From Actinomycetota bacterium (lineage in GTDB: Bacteria; Actinomycetota; Actinomycetes; Nanopelagicales; Nanopelagicaceae): a DNA stretch of 64,000 nucleotides. Where the stretch lies: NCBI GenBank assembly GCA_027728065.1, contig JAQBVO010000002.1, positions 62,001-126,000 of the forward strand. Reading direction: 5' to 3'. Shown here piece by piece: positions 458 through 20,664 of this stretch. Position numbers and translations under genes: made by a program. The notes below the pieces were generated by a model. It searched no databases. It was not told where the DNA came from and worked only from the letters and a program-made list of their open reading frames with translations. The first letter of the stretch is position 1. Each line of letters opens with the position of its first letter.

Positions 458-1168
458 ATGTCGCTCAATATCTCCAACCTAACAATTCATCACGGCGCAA
501 TCTGTGCCATCAACTCAGTATCTCTAGCAGTTCCTACTGGAAAGTTAGCAGCGATTATTGGATCGAACGGTGCGGGTAAAACTACTTTGCTAAGAGCCAT
601 CTCTGGTTTGAATAAACCCAGCCATGGAAAGATGAGCTGGATGGGTGAATCTATCCTGGATGAAAAACCTGAAAACTTAGTCCGCCGCGGGATTTCACAT
701 GTATCTGAGGGAAAATCGGTGATTCCAGAGTTAACCGTCAAAGAGAATCTCGAGTTAGGCGCAATCTGGCGTCGAAATAAAAATGAGTTAAGTAGTTCGC
801 TAGAGCAGGTCGTTACGACTTTTCCTCGCTTAGGCGAGAGATTGAGCCAGAGAGCCGATACCTTATCGGGCGGAGAGCGCCAGATGTTGGCTATTGGCCG
901 TGCATTAATGTCAAAACCCCAATTATTATTGCTTGATGAGCCATCTCTAGGGTTGGCACCTTTAGTCGTCGAACAGATCTTTCAGAAGATACATGACCTA
1001 TCGACTTCCATGCGAATAACCATTGTATTAGTTGAACAAAATGCGGTCGGTGCACTTAAGATCGCAGATTTAGGAATAGTCTTAAACCTTGGAAAAGTTG
1101 TCGCCGTCGATCACGCCGATGCACTCATGGTCAACCCTGCTGTGCGCGCAGCGTATTTGGGGTATTAA
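458..1168 (+). CDS. livF: Liv-type ABC transporter ATP-binding protein LivF
   Basis: This is the second ATPase of the branched-chain amino-acid type importer. All ABC motifs are intact: Walker A GSNGAGKTT near residue 35, signature LSGGERQMLAIGRAL near 136, Walker B LLLLDEPSLGLAP, and an H-loop in VLVEQNAVGAL. Its 236 residues are the usual LivF length. The ATG directly follows the livG stop and livH begins 2 bases after its own stop, so the genes form one operon. The intact LivF could carry most ATPase function if LivG is weakened. Substrate (branched-chain amino acids, other amino acids, amides or urea) cannot be read from the sequence. Confidence 0.93.
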   Translation: MSLNISNLTIHHGAICAINSVSLAVPTGKLAAIIGSNGAGKTTLLRAISGLNKPSHGKMSWMGESILDEKPENLVRRGISHVSEGKSVIPELTVKENLELGAIWRRNKNELSSSLEQVVTTFPRLGERLSQRADTLSGGERQMLAIGRALMSKPQLLLLDEPSLGLAPLVVEQIFQKIHDLSTSMRITIVLVEQNAVGALKIADLGIVLNLGKVVAVDHADALMVNPAVRAAYLGY

Positions 1169-1170
1169 TC

Positions 1171-2076
1171 ATGCAACTACTAAACACTATTTTAATTGGC
1201 ATAACGGCAGGATCTATTTATTCACTGATGGCAATCGCATTTGTTTTAGTTTGGCGCAGCACTCGAGTTGTTAACTTTGCACAAGCAGGCATGGCACTAC
1301 TTTCAACATATATAGGTTATGAAGCAGTTACTCGGTTCGGTTCATTCTGGATTGCTCTTCCGGTTGCAATGCTAGGGGGAGCACTTTTCGCCGCACTGGT
1401 AGAAGTAATTTTAATGCGCTTATTGGTTAAACATGCATCCACTGGCCCCATCGCAGCCGTCGCACCGATAATTGCAACCCTTGGATTATTGGGATTAATT
1501 CGCTCAGTTATTGCAATGATTTGGGGCGGTCAAGATTTAAGAATTCTTCCACCAGTTTCTAATATGGGTTTTACCCTCAATGGAGAAACACTTGTCTTTT
1601 CCCCATTAAAACTTTTGATTTTAATTATAACACTTGTTTTGATGGCACTTCTGAGCCTGCTCTTTCAGCGCACTAATTTGGGTTTGTCTTTACGTGCTTC
1701 GGCCTATGCCCCTGAAATTTCAAGGCTTTCAGGGGTCCATGTTGATCTAATTCGAACCCTTGGTTGGGCTCTTGCTGGGGCCGCAGGTGCAGTTGCAGGC
1801 ATCTTTCAGACGGTCAATGGAAATGGAAACTTCTCTCCCGATTCAATTGAATTTGCACTGCTCTTAGTCTCTGGTTTTATTGCTGCAGTTATTGGTGGTC
1901 TTGACAGCTTGCTTGGTGCAGTGATTGGCGGAATGTTTTTAGGCATTGTTATTGCATTTGTTCTTATATATGTCAATACAAGTCTTTTTTTCATCGTACC
2001 ATTCATTATTCTCTTAATCGTATTATTTATTCGCCCTCAAGGAATTATTGGAGCAAGGGCGGGACGCCGTGCATAA
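1171..2076 (+). CDS. livH: Liv-type ABC transporter permease LivH
   Basis: This is an integral membrane permease of the Liv (HAAT) importer. The 301-residue protein is strongly hydrophobic with about eight membrane segments. It carries family-typical blocks: an N-terminal AGSIYSLMAIAFVLVWRSTRVVNFAQ stretch (residues about 11-36; shown in part only as family hallmark positions), a LRASAYAPEISRLSGV loop equivalent to the LivH cytoplasmic coupling segment, and a C-terminal RPQG. It lies between livF and livM. The start ATG is 2 bases after livF. No anomalies are seen. Confidence 0.93.
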   Translation: MQLLNTILIGITAGSIYSLMAIAFVLVWRSTRVVNFAQAGMALLSTYIGYEAVTRFGSFWIALPVAMLGGALFAALVEVILMRLLVKHASTGPIAAVAPIIATLGLLGLIRSVIAMIWGGQDLRILPPVSNMGFTLNGETLVFSPLKLLILIITLVLMALLSLLFQRTNLGLSLRASAYAPEISRLSGVHVDLIRTLGWALAGAAGAVAGIFQTVNGNGNFSPDSIEFALLLVSGFIAAVIGGLDSLLGAVIGGMFLGIVIAFVLIYVNTSLFFIVPFIILLIVLFIRPQGIIGARAGRRA

Positions 2077-10603: not shown

Positions 10604-11055
10604 TCATCTATCGCGATGCAACGGCATTAGATCTTCCAGTTTTAACCTCTATGGAAAAGCAGCTCTTTGCCGATGCGCCATGGTCGATAGGTCAGTTTAA
10701 AGAGGAGTTCAAAGGGGTTCCGCGTACACATTTTTTTATAGTCGCGCTCAATAGCGATAACGAGATTATTGGTTACGCCGCCGTCATGGCGCCAGCCCCT
10801 GGCGTCGAGGCCGATGTCTTAACCGTGGGGGTTCTGCCCGAGCACCGCAAGGCCGGTATCGGCGAAGCCTTTATGGAACGGTTAGAGAACTGGGCGATTG
10901 CCAAAGAGTCCAACGCCATGATGCTAGAGGTCGGGGTTGATAACGCTGCCGCTATCGCTCTTTACCAATCTCTGGGCTATTCCACAGTCTCTACACGTAA
11001 GGATTACTACGGGGCTGGGCTTGATGCATTAGTGATGCGCAAGGAGATTTCATGA
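10600..11055 (+). CDS. rimI: ribosomal-protein-alanine/N-terminal acetyltransferase RimI
   Basis: This is a GNAT-family N-acetyltransferase. The acetyl-CoA-binding stretch [15 protein letters not shown] lies near residue 75, and the C-terminal [19 protein letters not shown] is the RimI-type motif B. Family members acetylate protein N-termini, classically ribosomal protein S18. Length 151 is normal. Overlaps of 4 bases with tsaB and tsaD place it within the t6A operon, a common actinobacterial arrangement. Confidence 0.9.
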
Positions 11056-12086
11056 GCGATCCAATCGTTTTAGGTATTGAAACATCCTGCGATGAAACGG
11101 CAGTGGGCATCGTGCGCGGCCGCACATTGTTAGCAAATACCATTGCATCCAGCGTACAAGAGCATGCGCGCTTTGGCGGAGTTGTTCCAGAGATTGCAAG
11201 TCGGGCGCATTTAGAGGCGATGGGGCCAACGCTTGCCCAAGCATTAAAGGATGCCAAAATTTCACTCAGTGATGTCGATGCGATCGCAGTTACTGCCGGT
11301 CCAGGTTTAGTTGGCGCTCTCTTAGTTGGTATCGGCTCGGGCGCAGGATTGGCCCTTGGTTTAAACAAACCAATATTTGCAGTTAATCATTTAGCAGCCC
11401 ATGTCAGCGTTGATTCGCTAACACATTCAAATCCTTTAGATCCAACGATTGCACTACTTGTAAGCGGTGGTCACTCATCACTGCTACAAGTTGATGAGAT
11501 CACCGGTTCAATTACAAAACTCGGTGCAACGATGGATGATGCAGCAGGTGAGGCCTTCGATAAAATCGCGCGTCTTATGAAGTTAGGTTTTCCAGGTGGA
11601 CCTGCAATCGATGCCTTAGCTACAAGCGGTGGGGCAGAGGCAATCGATTTTCCGCGGGGGTTAACAACTTCGCATGATTGGCAGATACGACCTTTTGATT
11701 TCTCCTTCTCAGGATTAAAGACTGCAGTTGCTCGATATATAGAGGCCACACCCAATTACGCGCGGGCCGATGTTGCAGCCTCTTTCCAAGAGGCGGTCGT
11801 AGATGTCTTACTTCTTAAATCACTCACCGCGTGTAAGCGCTCTGGGATTAACTCGCTCATCATCGCCGGTGGGGTAGCGGCCAACTCACGACTTCGAGCC
11901 GTAGCCGAGCAGCGCTGCGATAAGGCGGGCATCAACCTTCGAATCCCAGCCCCGGCCCTGTGTACCGATAACGGGGCGATGGTCGCCGCCCTCGGCGCTC
12001 TGATGCTCTCTGCCGGTCGCAGCCCGAGCCCGATCGCCTTTGATGGCCTTTCTGGCCTACCTGTTGAGGTTGTGAGCCTGCTCTAG
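11052..12086 (+). CDS. tsaD: tRNA threonylcarbamoyladenosine transferase TsaD
   Basis: TsaD transfers the threonylcarbamoyl group from threonylcarbamoyl-AMP to A37 of tRNA. The protein opens with [16 protein letters not shown], carries the metal-binding HLAAH near residue 112 and SGGHSSLL near 137, and ends with a [10 protein letters not shown] block and the DNGAM motif. Length 344 fits. It is the last gene of the tsaE-tsaB-rimI-tsaD unit and is followed by the groESL control region. Confidence 0.96.
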
Positions 12087-12111
12087 CCGATTTGCCGTGG
12101 GGAATATGCCC

Positions 12112-12117
12112 TAATAC
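12112..12117 (+). promoter_or_regulatory. groESL -10-like element TAATAC
   Basis: TAATAC fits a -10 hexamer. A start about 7 bases downstream would fall at the first base of the CIRCE-like repeat, as expected for HrcA repression. A -35 candidate, TTGCCG at 12092, has short (14-base) spacing and is weak. Confidence 0.5.
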
Positions 12118-12124
12118 CCTTGCG

Positions 12125-12151
12125 TTAGCACTCACGGGCCCACACTGCTAA
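12125..12151. promoter_or_regulatory. CIRCE-like HrcA operator of groESL
   Basis: The left arm TTAGCACTC is a perfect CIRCE half-site. After the canonical 9-base spacer the right arm reads CACTGCTAA, two mismatches from GAGTGCTAA. It lies between the tsaD end and groES. HrcA repression released by heat shock is the established role of this element; the HrcA gene is not in the window. Confidence 0.8.
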
Positions 12152-12196
12152 CCCGGGCCCGCACGAGGAAAACAACGCACAAAAGGAGCTATGTAT

Positions 12197-12484
12197 ATGG
12201 CAATTAAGCCACTAGAAGATCGCATCGTTATTAAGACAAATGAGGCCGAGACAACGACGGCATCGGGTCTTGTAATCCCAGATACAGCAAAAGAGAAGCC
12301 ACAGGAGGGCGTCGTTATCGCCGTCGGACCAGGTCGCTTTGATGATGGCGTGCGCGTTCCAATGGATGTCAAAGTCGGTGACGTTGTTTTGTATAGCAAG
12401 TACGGCGGAACTGAAATCAAGTATGGCGGAGATGATCTTTTGGTGCTCTCAGCTCGCGACATTCTCGCTGTAATCGAGAAGTAA
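12197..12484 (+). CDS. groES: co-chaperonin GroES
   Basis: GroES is the 10-kDa lid of the GroEL folding chamber. The product begins [13 protein letters not shown], holds the mobile-loop region around [19 protein letters not shown] (residues about 16-34) and ends [13 protein letters not shown] prefer the ATG at 12197: the AGGAG at 12185 is then about 7 bases away, whereas the ATG at 12191 is only about 2. groEL starts immediately after the stop. Control is by the CIRCE-like element upstream. Confidence 0.96.
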
Positions 12485-14119
<1,635 letters not shown>

Positions 14120-14130
14120 TAAAACTAGAT

Positions 14131-14165
14131 AAGAAACCCCACAGATTTTCCCTGTGGGGTTTCTT
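14131..14165. terminator. intrinsic terminator after groEL
   Basis: AAGAAACCCCACAG pairs with CTGTGGGGTTTCTT (14 bp) around a 7-base loop, followed by T-rich sequence. It separates groEL from the convergent whiB gene and, being symmetrical, may serve both strands. Confidence 0.9.
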
Positions 14166-14190
14166 CTTTAACTCAGGAGGAGAGTTAAAT

Positions 14191-14493
14191 CTATGATGCC
14201 TCAGGGATATCTGAATTGTGAATCTTCTCGATAATTGTTAGGCGATCATCTTCAGATAGACCACCCCAAATCCCATACGGCTCGTGTACTGCAAGGGCGT
14301 GTGTCCGGCAGGCGGCAATTACAGGACAGGTTGCACATACTGCTTTTGCGCTATTTTCTCGGTTACGCCTACGAGGACCACGCTCTCCATCTGGATGAAA
14401 AAACATCTCTGATGGCAGATCGCGGCATGAACCTTGGTACTGCCACTCCCATTCATCTGCAACGGGACGGGGTAATCGTGATAGTTCAGCCAT
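14191..14493 (-). CDS. WhiB-family iron-sulfur regulator, WblA/WhiB4-like
   Basis: This is an actinobacterial [4Fe-4S] transcription factor of 100 residues. The four cluster cysteines are in SCRDL (about 23), VCATC (about 53 and 56) and ACRTHA (about 62). The GIWGGLSEDDR turn follows. The MFFHPDGERGPRRRNRE stretch is characteristic of the WblA/WhiB4 branch, implicated in oxidative-stress and developmental control in other Actinobacteria. The ATG is 6 bases from a TAGATT with a well-spaced -35, predicting a leaderless mRNA. It is divergent from the MerR/B12 regulator gene. Confidence 0.93.
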   Translation of the reverse strand: MAELSRLPRPVADEWEWQYQGSCRDLPSEMFFHPDGERGPRRRNRENSAKAVCATCPVIAACRTHALAVHEPYGIWGGLSEDDRLTIIEKIHNSDIPEAS

Positions 14494-14499
14494 GGCGAT

Positions 14500-14528
14500 A
14501 ATCTACAACCGCGCCATAGATTGTTCAA
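14500..14528 (-). promoter_or_regulatory. whiB promoter: TTGAAC -17- TAGATT, leaderless
   Basis: On the minus strand TTGAAC (14523-14528) is followed by 17 bases and TAGATT (14500-14505), which lies exactly 6 bases before the whiB ATG. Spacing is ideal for a housekeeping sigma factor. The -35 overlaps the first of two TTGTTCAA repeats that could be operator sites. Confidence 0.65.
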
Positions 14529-14554
14529 GTACCTTCGCGCCAAAACTTGTTCAA
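14521..14554. repeat. direct repeat TTGTTCAA x2 in whiB/merR divergent region
   Basis: TTGTTCAA occurs at 14521-14528 and 14547-14554, 26 bases apart. The first copy coincides with the whiB -35. A perfect inverted repeat GTGAG-ATGG-CTCAC follows at 14571-14584. Direct repeats in the promoter of a B12-type MerR gene are a plausible operator, but this is inference. Confidence 0.4.
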
Positions 14555-14603
14555 ATGGCGTTTTCAGGTGGTGAGATGGCTCACTTGGCGCAAAGATAGG
14601 GCC

Positions 14604-15488
14604 ATGCCCGCCCCAGAGGAGCCCTTAACGGTAGCCGCCACCGCCCGACGCGTGGGCGTTGCCCCTGCCACCCTTCGTACCTGGGACCGCCGTTATGGCT
14701 TAGGACCATCTGAGCACCAGGCGGGGGCTCATCGACGTTACTGTGCACTGGATGTGGCGCGATTGATGATGATGCGCCGTTTGATCTCAACAGGGGTTGC
14801 ACCATGCCAAGCCGCTGAAATAGCTAAGAGCGATAACGGTAAAACTCCCCTTGCGAAAATTAAACATAGTTTTCAATCGCGCGATGAGCTTGTTAGCGCA
14901 GTATTTAAAGCGGTTCAAATCTGCGATAGCGCCTTTACCGAAAGCGAATTGAAAAAAGATGTAACTGCACATGGAGTTGTCTCGTCATGGTCGGAAGTCA
15001 TTGCCCCACTGCTTATTTTAGTAGGAAAGACCTGGGAAGAGACCGATAAGGGAATTGCAGCAGAGCATCTCCTTACAGAGATTATCAAGAATGTATTAAG
15101 AGATAGCATTAAGGAGATCAAGATAGCCCACAATGCACAGCCCGTACTTCTTGCCGCAGTTGGCCAAGAGATTCACTGCCTTGCACTCCACGCACTTGTG
15201 GCAGCACTTGCAGAGCGCAGAATTAAAACTCACTACTTAGGCGCACGCACCCCCATGGCAGCGCTATCGACAATGGTCTCTCGCTCGGCTCCACCTGCAG
15301 TCTTTCTCTGGGCACAGTTGAAAGAGAACGCTCAACCTGAATTCTTCCGTGGCTTACCTGACGTACGCCCCGCCCCTCGGATCGTGCTAGGTGGACCGGG
15401 CTGGGATCGCAATGAGTGCAGCGATGTCGCCTTTGTTGAGGATTTAGAGCAGGCCTGTCAAGAGATTGGGCGTGCCGTAGGGCTTTAA
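14604..15488 (+). CDS. MerR-family regulator with B12-binding (CarH/LitR-type) C-terminus
   Basis: Residues about 8-75 form a MerR helix-turn-helix (VAATARRVGVAPATLRTWDRR and AGAHRRY). The C-terminal half carries W144-x9-E154-H155 (TWEETDKGIAAEH), the signature of the four-helix bundle capping adenosylcobalamin in CarH/LitR photoreceptors. It is followed by QEIH at 189-191, where the His would coordinate cobalt; the usual ExHxxG Gly is Ala here. Known relatives repress carotenoid or light-stress genes in the dark and let go in light. The ATG at 14604 is chosen because the frame upstream has no MerR homology. The gene is divergent from whiB. Confidence 0.8.
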   Translation: MPAPEEPLTVAATARRVGVAPATLRTWDRRYGLGPSEHQAGAHRRYCALDVARLMMMRRLISTGVAPCQAAEIAKSDNGKTPLAKIKHSFQSRDELVSAVFKAVQICDSAFTESELKKDVTAHGVVSSWSEVIAPLLILVGKTWEETDKGIAAEHLLTEIIKNVLRDSIKEIKIAHNAQPVLLAAVGQEIHCLALHALVAALAERRIKTHYLGARTPMAALSTMVSRSAPPAVFLWAQLKENAQPEFFRGLPDVRPAPRIVLGGPGWDRNECSDVAFVEDLEQACQEIGRAVGL

Positions 15489-15497
15489 AAGCCCCGA

Positions 15498-15503
15498 TAG
15501 ACT
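15498..15503 (+). promoter_or_regulatory. -10-like TAGACT upstream of guaB
   Basis: TAGACT lies 24 bases before the guaB GTG. Transcription would begin near 15510, leaving room for the Shine-Dalgarno GAAGGGGG at 15514. This unit is therefore leadered, unlike many of its neighbours. Confidence 0.4.
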
Positions 15504-15515
15504 TCCCGCCTGTGA

Positions 15516-17747
<2,232 letters not shown>

Positions 17748-17755
<8 letters not shown>

Positions 17756-19298
17756 TGATCGCTCCGTACTTGTAGTCGATTTCGGGGCGCAGTATGCCCA
17801 GTTGATTGCACGGCGCGTGCGTGAGGCAGATGTTTTTTCAGAGATTGTTCCATCGACAATTACCGCAGCGCAAATACGGTCAAAAAACCCTTCAGCAATG
17901 ATCTTATCTGGCGGACCATCGAGTGTCTATGCCGAGAATGCACCGGATTTCGATGCAGAGATTCTCACTCTTGGTATTCCAACCTTTGGTATCTGTTATG
18001 GATTTCAAGTTATGGCTGCAGCCCTTGGTGGCCTAGTGAGCCAGACAGGCAAGTCAGAGTTTGGCCGTACTGATATAACGGCGCAAACACAGTCAAAACT
18101 CTTTACCGGTTTACCGGCCCAGCAAAAGACCTGGATGTCACATGGTGATGCCGTTACGCAAGCCCCTTTAGGATTTAACGTCTGTGCAACAACTGTCGAT
18201 ACACCTATCGCTGCATTTGAAAATGTAACTGGTCAATTAGCGGGAGTGCAGTTTCACCCGGAGGTTTTACAGAGCGAACATGGCCAAGTGATTTTGAAGA
18301 ACTGGTTAGTCAATATCGCTAAATGTGGGACTACGTGGACAACATCTAATATTGTAGAAAGTGAAGTTGCAAAGGCCAAACAGGTAATCGGAAACAAGAA
18401 GGTAATTTGCGGGATTTCGGGTGGTGTTGATTCGGCCGTTGCCGCAGCGATTATTCAACGCGCAGTCGGAGATCAGCTGACCTGTGTCTTTGTTGATCAT
18501 GGTCTATTGCGCCAAGGTGAGGCCGAACAAGTCGAACGTGACTTTGTTGCATCTACTGGCGTTAACCTAGTTGTAATCGATGCCAAAGAGGTTTTCTTAT
18601 TAGCGCTCAAAGGTGTGATTGACCCAGAGGAAAAGCGCAAGATAATTGGGCGCGAGTTCATCTTTGCCTTTGAAAAGGCGGCGCGTGATATTGCATCTGG
18701 CGGCGAAGTCGAATTCTTAGTACAGGGTACGTTATATCCAGATGTCGTTGAATCCGGTGGCGGAACCGGAACTGCCAATATCAAATCACACCATAACGTC
18801 GGGGGGTTACCCGATGATTTAAAGTTCACATTGGTCGAACCATTGCGCACATTATTTAAGGATGAAGTACGTCAGGTTGGAATCGAGTTAGGGCTGCCAG
18901 AAGAGATTGTTTGGCGCCAACCATTTCCCGGCCCTGGCTTTGGCATTCGCATTATCGGTGAGGTCACACAAGAGCGCTTAGATCTGCTGCGCCAAGCAGA
19001 TGCGATTGCCCGTTTTGAGCTCAAAGCGGCAGGTCTTGATCGCGATATTTGGCAATGTCCCGTCGTACTTCTAGCCGATGTTCGCTCAGTAGGTGTTCAA
19101 GGCGATGGACGCACCTACGGTCATCCAATAGTTCTGCGTCCCGTTTCAAGTGAAGATGCAATGACTGCAGATTGGGCGCGCCTGCCAAATGAGGTTCTCG
19201 AAAGGATTTCTACACGCATTACCAACGAAGTACGTGAAGTCAATCGAGTTGTCTTAGATCTAACAAGTAAACCGCCAGGAACAATTGAATGGGAATAG
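17748..19298 (+). CDS. guaA: GMP synthase (glutamine-hydrolysing)
   Basis: GuaA converts XMP to GMP using glutamine and ATP. The N-terminal class I amidotransferase domain has the nucleophile in GICYGFQ near residue 83 and the QFHPEV His near 168. The ATP pyrophosphatase P-loop SGGVDS lies near residue 224, and the C-terminal dimerisation domain ends PPGTIEWE. Length 516 is normal. The GTG start lies inside guaB3 and the gene end overlaps the cyclophilin start by 10 bases. Confidence 0.97.
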
Positions 19299-19942
19299 AA
19301 TTGAAAAACCCATTATTAATAACAACGCTGTTACTCTTAATTCTTGCCCCAACGAACCCCGCTCCCGCTGCGCAAAAAGCGCCGGCGGTTAAATGTGTAG
19401 CCACTAAAGCCGTTGGACACACAGTAAAGAAGGTCAAACCTGCGGCTAAACCATTTACAAAACTTCCTAAGAGTTTCATCCTTACAACCAACTGCGGAAC
19501 GATTGTTATTGCAACGGTGGGCAATAAGGCACCTTGGACGCTTACAGCGATCTCTACACTTGCCAGAGCCGGTTACTTTGATGGCTCACTATGTCATCGC
19601 TTAACAACTGCTAGAATCTATGTTTTGCAGTGCGGAGATCCAACTGCAACAGGCCGAGGCGGTCCTGGCTTTTCATATCCCGATGAAAACCTCCCATCGC
19701 CGGTAGCCAACAACTACCCAGCGGGCACAGTAGCTATGGCTAACTCAGGGCCAGGCACTAACGGCAGTCAATTCTTCTTAGTATTTGCCGATACAACCCT
19801 TGGTCCCGACTACACAATTTGGGGAAAGATAACTAAGGGCTTAGAGATTGTCCAAGCGATAGCTAAAGATGGAGTTAAGGGCGGCGGCGCAGATGGCCCA
19901 CCTAAGACAGCGATCGCACTTACAAAGCTACGTGTTGGTTAA
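19289..19942 (+). CDS. secreted cyclophilin-type peptidyl-prolyl isomerase
   Basis: The first 27 residues are a signal peptide or anchor ([12 protein letters not shown] ... APAA). After a basic, Lys/Pro/Ala-rich linker (to about residue 66) a cyclophilin domain follows with [50 protein letters not shown] and a C-terminal [10 protein letters not shown]. It catalyses prolyl cis-trans isomerisation of exported proteins. The usual active-site FHR is LCHRL here and Arg is kept. It overlaps guaA by 10 bases and its end overlaps the convergent deacetylase by 4. Confidence 0.9.
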
Positions 19943-20664
19943 TTCGTATTAACGATTTTGAAGGCTTCGGCGATTCGACCTTCGGTGAATCCAGCAAGGC
20001 CGGCGTTTCGTTGACCCCACTCACGCACCATCGTCTCTAGATTCTCATTATGTGCAGTCTGTGATGAGTGTTCACGCAACGCCTTAATCTTCAAATCAAA
20101 TGTCTCGGTAATATCTACAAAGTGATCGGGTTGAGCAAAGGCAGTAACCCATATCTCTTTAACTCGCCATGGTTGTAAACCCTCAATCTCTAACAATTCG
20201 GTAAAGGCAAAGGGATTTCGCGCATCGGGGTAGACGGCTTGAATCGCAGCTTCACCGGCAGCCAAGTGATCTGGATGGCTTGCGCCTATGCGATCCCAAT
20301 TACGCTCTGGTGATTGGCAGACCAAACGATCTGGCTTCCAGATTCGGATTTGGCGCACTAAATCTTTTCGCAGATCTAGAGTTGCCTGAAGGTGGCCATC
20401 GACATAGTTGAGAAAAGTAATATTGTGAACACCAAGGACAGCACCCGCTGCACGTTGTTCACGTTGACGGACTGCAGGTATCTGCTCTCTGGTGAACTCA
20501 GACTCTTCACCGCCTTGATCGCCATTGGTGCAAAAGACATATGAGAGCTCAATACCTTTTTTAACCCAGTGGGCGATTGTTCCCGATGCTCCAAAATCTG
20601 AATCATCAGGGTGGGCACTTATGACTAAAACCCGTTCGATCTCACTATCGGGGATCGGCTCCAT
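19939..20664 (-). CDS. PIG-L/LmbE-family N-acetylglucosaminyl deacetylase-like protein
   Basis: This is a zinc-dependent deacetylase of the PIG-L superfamily. Zinc ligands are in the AHPDDSDFG motif near residue 17 and the SHPDH motif near residue 129. Characterised relatives deacetylate GlcNAc-linked small molecules such as mycothiol precursors; which substrate is used here is not evident. Length 241 is typical. The ATG is 6 bases from TAGGCT, predicting a leaderless mRNA. The gene is divergent from pcrA and its stop overlaps the cyclophilin stop. Confidence 0.88.
   Translation of the reverse strand: MEPIPDSEIERVLVISAHPDDSDFGASGTIAHWVKKGIELSYVFCTNGDQGGEESEFTREQIPAVRQREQRAAGAVLGVHNITFLNYVDGHLQATLDLRKDLVRQIRIWKPDRLVCQSPERNWDRIGASHPDHLAAGEAAIQAVYPDARNPFAFTELLEIEGLQPWRVKEIWVTAFAQPDHFVDITETFDLKIKALREHSSQTAHNENLETMVREWGQRNAGLAGFTEGRIAEAFKIVNTN

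Follow-up and report, generated by a model that had tools for sequence, protein, structure and literature searches.

The forward-strand gene at 14604..15488 of the window (the whole stretch of DNA that was analysed, 64,000 nucleotides) encodes a CarH/LitR-like MerR-type regulator of an actinomycete subtype. With a probability of about one half, we take its product to be a probably AdoCbl-binding repressor whose main target is the divergently transcribed WhiB3-type gene, with its own promoter as a probable further target. Carotenoid genes are what known CarH/LitR proteins mostly control. In this case whiB, and not a carotenoid gene, is the likely target, and comparison of related loci makes its control through one conserved DNA site very probable. 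Such an arrangement suggests a redox switch driven by light or B12 instead of the usual carotenoid switch. The reading draws on homology, on capping and ligand residues that do not vary within the family, on the synteny of the gene pair, and on the co-retention and co-loss of gene and DNA element. The interest of the system lies in the WhiB3 pairing and the conserved operator-like site; the changed glycine of its cobalamin motif is ordinary for the clade.

The open reading frame at 14604-15488 (+) begins with ATG and comprises 294 codons plus a stop; a longer frame from an alternative TTG at 14547 is possible, and relatives favour a start at about 14604. The product combines a helix-turn-helix domain (HTH; aa 9-75), a putative four-helix cap and a putative Rossmann-type domain. 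Pfam recognizes MerR_1 (PF13411; E 6.7e-12), with both B12-binding and B12-binding_2 sub-threshold, and the N-terminal MerR helix-turn-helix carries RTWDRRY, a match to RxWxRRY. The NCBIfam CarH equivalog model aligns with residues 9-284 at 103 bits, below its cut-off of 400. Among solved structures, Thermus CarH is the top full-length match (3whp, E 2.6e-18; 5c8d, E 3.2e-18), and the CarH cobalamin-domain construct alone matches with E 8e-10. AlphaFold models from an input limited to three sequences were of low confidence, with a pLDDT of 47 for the full length and 40 for the C-terminal part. CarH/LitR-type ancestry, put forward in the initial annotation, is supported by full-length homology to Thermus thermophilus CarH (TtCarH; E 3e-18) and by the retained AdoCbl-capping motif; a chance motif or artefact is ruled out by this homology together with conservation across homologs.

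The earlier reading of an exact W-x9-EH motif also holds: the cap carries W144-EETDKGIAA-E154-H155, and the Rossmann-type domain contains the D/ExH lower cobalt ligand as Q188-E189-I190-H191, in which the predicted ligand histidine of QEIH, H191, is found in 57/57 family homologs. The classical B12 motif is D/ExHx2G/P-x41-SxT/V-x22-27-GG (PMC9304148), and its spacings fit the protein exactly. The Gly of ExHxxG is indeed Ala, as previously noted: Ala194 occupies the position that is Gly or Pro in class I LitR/CarH proteins. Two departures had been overlooked, namely W236-A-Q238 in the SxT/V position, at the correct x41 spacing, and an extra Trp after GG, where G263-G264, 24 residues on and within the 22-27 range, continues as P-G-W267 (GGPGW, 263-267).

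We aligned the protein with 57 family homologs (mean pairwise identity 55%), 11 class-level homologs and 17 phylum-level homologs. W144, E154, H155, H191, W236, G263 and G264 are invariant within the family (57/57). Ala or Pro at the ExHxxG Gly, Trp236 and Trp267 are present in every family homolog sampled and in almost every actinomycete homolog at class level, and ExHxL[A/P], W[A/S] and GPGW are common to nearly all of the latter. The signature recurs in a Streptomyces homolog encoded beside CrtI and CrtB (EQHTLP, WSQ, CGPGW), and homologs of more distant actinobacterial classes retain ExHxxG in nearly all cases. The Gly-to-Ala change as a private lesion is ruled out by the clade-wide Ala/Pro. 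Because Ala/Pro, Trp236 and Trp267 are common to the clade, the departure is best read as a change of the whole clade, in which the corrin-tail side of the pocket was remodelled in a coordinated way, and not as damage; the altered cobalamin motif of the initial annotation is real, but as a lineage-wide actinomycete signature rather than an oddity of one bacterium. Given W-A-Q for SxT/V and ExHxxA for ExHxxG, the pocket for the nucleotide tail may be changed or closed.

In TtCarH, the His adjoining the motif Trp (His132) forms the bis-His light state. The corresponding residue is Glu145 here and is variable within the family, suggesting that the dark state is left by another route. Light sensing would still be compatible with the missing His132, since CtMerR, SasPcob and AbDPcob, with Arg, Gln and Tyr at this position, are nevertheless photoresponsive (PMC11796333). 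Three of the four parts of the SignatureFinder photoreceptor signature (GxxW, EH, GxxH, GxxxP) are present, as GKTW, EH and GARTP; at the GxxH position the protein has VGQEIH, offset by one residue. As GxxxH replaces GxxH, the published signature search would miss this protein and its clade.

The divergent neighbour, whiB (14191..14493, minus strand; PF02467, E 8e-24), encodes an iron-sulfur regulator of the WhiB3/WhiD type (class III Wbl, described in PMC6282962). Its product has the four-Cys Fe-S arrangement C23-x29-C53-x2-C56-x5-C62 followed by EPY and GIWGG, and it matches WhiB3 of Mycobacterium tuberculosis best (E 1e-33), then WhiB1 (5e-13). In M. tuberculosis, WhiB3 is known to interact with SigA and to be responsive to O2, NO and the redox state (PMC6282962). 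The pair is embedded between groES-groEL (12191..14119, +) on the left and guaB with the guaB-like GuaB3 gene (15528..17755, +) on the right, and the order groEL, divergent whiB, carH-like gene, guaB and then guaB3 recurs in almost every family locus. A strong 15-bp hairpin at 14131-14165 of the window, lying where groEL and whiB converge, is likely a shared terminator. Divergent pairing with whiB extends to other actinomycete families (L101, L102, L107, L112, L115, L149 and L151). Both the carH-like gene and whiB are missing from some genera of this family and from most genomes of genus g9, three complete single-contig ones included; in the g9 genomes that keep whiB (L143, L144, L145), guaB3 lies directly upstream of it and guaB was unseen in the loci. 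At L027 (genome G184), a short whiB match overlaps the carH-like start, which suggests a damaged or rearranged whiB. Beside whiB at L112 (7269-8354), L115 (7410-8387) and L149 (HTH about 1134-1334, minus strand), all from other actinomycete families, the CarH-like proteins retain the DNA-binding domain, and most of their cobalamin motifs are gone.

Between whiB and the carH-like gene lies a conserved 24-bp element, CAACCGCGCCATAGATTGTTCAAG (14506..14529, strand unspecified), the candidate operator. Its consensus is CAAYCG-N3-C-N2-A-N-GTTGTTCAAG, with A replacing G at one site at 14506-14529, and the CAA, CG, C, A, T and GTTCA of the element are invariant in 56 aligned loci. The consensus of the CarH repeat is nAnnTnnACAn (PMC8156234), and the right half of the element contains one perfect copy of it on the minus strand (TGTnnAnnT, 14522-14530). 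A second, less conserved box, CTTGTTCAAAT, also TGTnnAnnT, lies at 14546..14556 (strand unspecified), and 16 of 57 family loci have two TTGTTCA boxes. The two matches here are 26 bp apart, an arrangement other than the three or four tandem 11-bp repeats of CarH. On the whiB strand, the element runs from the -35 hexamer to just before the -10, filling the spacer of a putative whiB promoter (14500..14528, minus strand) composed of -35 TTGAAC (14528-14523), a 17-bp spacer and -10 TAGATT (14505-14500). Across family loci the -35 is conserved in 55/56 and the -10, as TAnnnT, in 51/56; a generic promoter scan did not report this promoter. Since the whiB start codon lies 6 bp past the -10, here and in 34 loci, the whiB transcript is probably leaderless. 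A search of Rfam over positions 11000-20000 of the window returned no match.

Loss of the regulator offers a test of its association with the element. The element is present in 61 of the 63 loci with a carH-like gene, the two exceptions (L018, L041) having close variants of it, and in 0/14 of those in which whiB survives without the carH-like gene and has readable upstream DNA (L120, L122, L123, L131, L133, L135-L140 and L143-L145; L121 and L146 were left out, as the whiB upstream region runs off the contig). Sister controls keeping the regulator have the element in 8/8 cases. On a WhiB-GuaB-GroEL tree, the distribution of the regulator corresponds to 6 changes, at least 4 of them on supported branches (4-6 separate losses). 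Some of the deletions that removed the gene could also have removed the element; in at least one case, L136 (genome G277), the left half of the element is kept in decayed form, which argues for decay in place rather than removal along with the gene. The gene-loss argument is strong in pattern and not in formal count, because the strict independent-pair sign test has 4 pairs, 3 agreeing and 1 tied (p 0.25), too few events. We put weight on the element test because gene adjacency and incomplete MAGs inflate the Fisher value for gene co-occurrence (209/8/16/63).

Scanning with the element alone led to the same gene pair. With up to 1 mismatch allowed, 39 of 395 actinomycete-class genomes contained a match, and WhiB and CarH-like genes flanked it in all 30 of the 30 loci fetched, 3 of them outside the family. 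The genome under study has no second zero-mismatch element beyond the whiB/carH site, and 3-mismatch matches occur in it at the control rate. One additional 1-mismatch match, on contig C34, lies inside the reading frame of an ABC-transporter ATPase and was taken as chance. We found no support for carotenoid genes as direct targets in this genome: the phytoene synthase gene is on another contig, and the scan showed no copy of the element at a carotenoid promoter. Because the genome is without other zero-mismatch sites and the nearest extra falls inside the transporter gene, the circuit looks local to the whiB/carH pair.

A spacer of 17 bp is near optimal for SigA-type promoters. For this reason, repression would fit the whiB promoter better than DNA untwisting of the MerR type. 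In the mechanism we propose, the AdoCbl-bound protein would sit on the element in the -35/-10 spacer in the dark and block the promoter; blue-green light would break the Co-C bond and the protein would release the DNA; and the WhiB3-type [4Fe-4S] protein then made would retune SigA-dependent transcription under photo-oxidative conditions. Binding of the element and of B12, the response to light, the repressive sign and the WhiB3 output are predictions of the model. AdoCbl is expected in the cell: the genome (1.4 Mb, 99% complete) encodes a PduO-type adenosyltransferase (contig C38) and a methylmalonyl-CoA-mutase-type small subunit whose gene is divergent from that of MeaB (L093, 1453-2680). 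The adenosyltransferase gene is found in 51/52 family genomes tested, this one included, and because nearly all carry it, its co-occurrence does not tell genomes that have the regulator from those that lack it. The same genome has an MtgC/MtbC-type corrinoid protein near a methylenetetrahydrofolate-reductase-like gene (L092, 1222-3173), a gene pair suggesting that this streamlined freshwater actinobacterium carries out methyl transfer with a corrinoid.

The tryptophans W236 and W267, which replace small tail-pocket residues across the clade, could alternatively mean that the pocket is closed and that the protein is a CarH-derived, B12-independent regulator akin to CarA that would control whiB in response to a different ligand, to a partner protein or to no signal at all. 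The same-locus orthologs L112, L115 and L149, in which the pair persists without the cobalamin motif, would agree with such a state. We nevertheless regard it as rather unlikely for this protein, as the W, E, H and ligand His found in 57/57 members of its family are hard to explain without corrin binding; CarA has lost the Trp that is kept here (PMC9304148), and the crt-linked Streptomyces homolog displays the same Trp signature. If B12 is bound, light could still be of minor importance, and AdoCbl occupancy or the oxidation state of cobalt could set whiB expression. This possibility, which we judge unlikely, gains from the partner being a redox-type Fe-S regulator, from the oxygen dependence of TtCarH photoproducts (PMC10442372) and from the absence of the bis-His light-state ligand, and loses from the invariance of the Ado-capping W and EH required for CarH light sensing and from the light responses of CtMerR, SasPcob and AbDPcob without His132 (PMC11796333).

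It is improbable that the element serves another factor or simply is the whiB promoter, with the CarH-like protein acting elsewhere. The element does overlap the -35 and -10 hexamers, and other factors bind actinobacterial promoters, but the interior of the spacer (CG, C, A) is invariant in the 56 aligned loci, and the element is kept by none of the whiB genes that remain after loss of the regulator. At L149, the element is present with one mismatch despite the lost cobalamin motifs, which the B12-independent reading would accommodate.

In the regulator tree, one side of a supported branch holds the family, the crt-linked and Streptomyces homologs and the WhiB-linked L107, and the opposite side holds TtCarH and homologs of other classes; the WhiB-linked L101 and L102 fall outside the family/crt-linked group with weak support. 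As WhiB-linked members also branch outside the crt-linked group, the tree suggests that WhiB linkage is older than crt linkage. On this basis (moderate support in the tree), one may tentatively envisage an ancestral actinobacterial photo-redox relay, in which a B12 photoreceptor whose corrin-tail pocket has been remodelled directly gates a WhiB3-type Fe-S regulator via a palindrome-like spacer operator, the crt-linked LitR of Streptomyces being a later recruitment. Several crt-linked homologs outside Streptomyces lack the cap Trp, and two CarH-like copies lie within a few kb at L106 (6040-9851), there beside crt genes, and L108, both without the Wx9EH Trp.

In freshwater actinobacteria that are abundant and have streamlined genomes, the genomic evidence connects the CarH/LitR family with a redox regulator of the WhiB3 type, and with a named candidate DNA site a direct link between light, B12 and redox becomes testable. 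The light-sensing protein of two other freshwater actinobacterial species is said to be unknown (PMC8591293), and the CarH-like protein represents a candidate kind of light sensor for this group.

Compared with class I LitR/CarH proteins, such as CarH of T. thermophilus and Bacillus megaterium, the protein shares the MerR-type DNA-binding domain, the W-x9-EH cap, the E-x-H lower ligand, GG and the motif spacings (x41, x24), with homology to TtCarH over its full length, but has ExHxxA instead of G/P, WAQ instead of SxT/V, a Trp after GG and no His132; it also lacks the tandem 11-bp operator, and its target would be a WhiB3-type gene as against crt genes. Streptomyces coelicolor LitR controls litS and crt genes. 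Taking the crt-linked Streptomyces sequences as LitR, an assignment that rests on gene context, LitR belongs to the same actinomycete clade by tree and shares ExHxLP, WSQ and GPGW. It differs in its crt linkage and in the W-x10-EH of the Streptomyces homologs, as against W-x9-EH here, and no copy of the element boxes was found in the upstream regions of these homologs. S. coelicolor LitR is reported to be a coenzyme-B12 photosensor, and the LitR-dependent light response in S. avermitilis requires added B12 (PMC12705666). CtMerR and the photocobilins found with SignatureFinder resemble the protein in GxxW, EH and GxxxP, and their light response is independent of His132; they differ in having GxxH where it has GxxxH. 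Finally, CarA of Myxococcus xanthus is likewise a CarH-family regulator that retains the ExH ligand motif, but it works without B12 and has lost the Wx9EH Trp, which the actinobacterial protein keeps.
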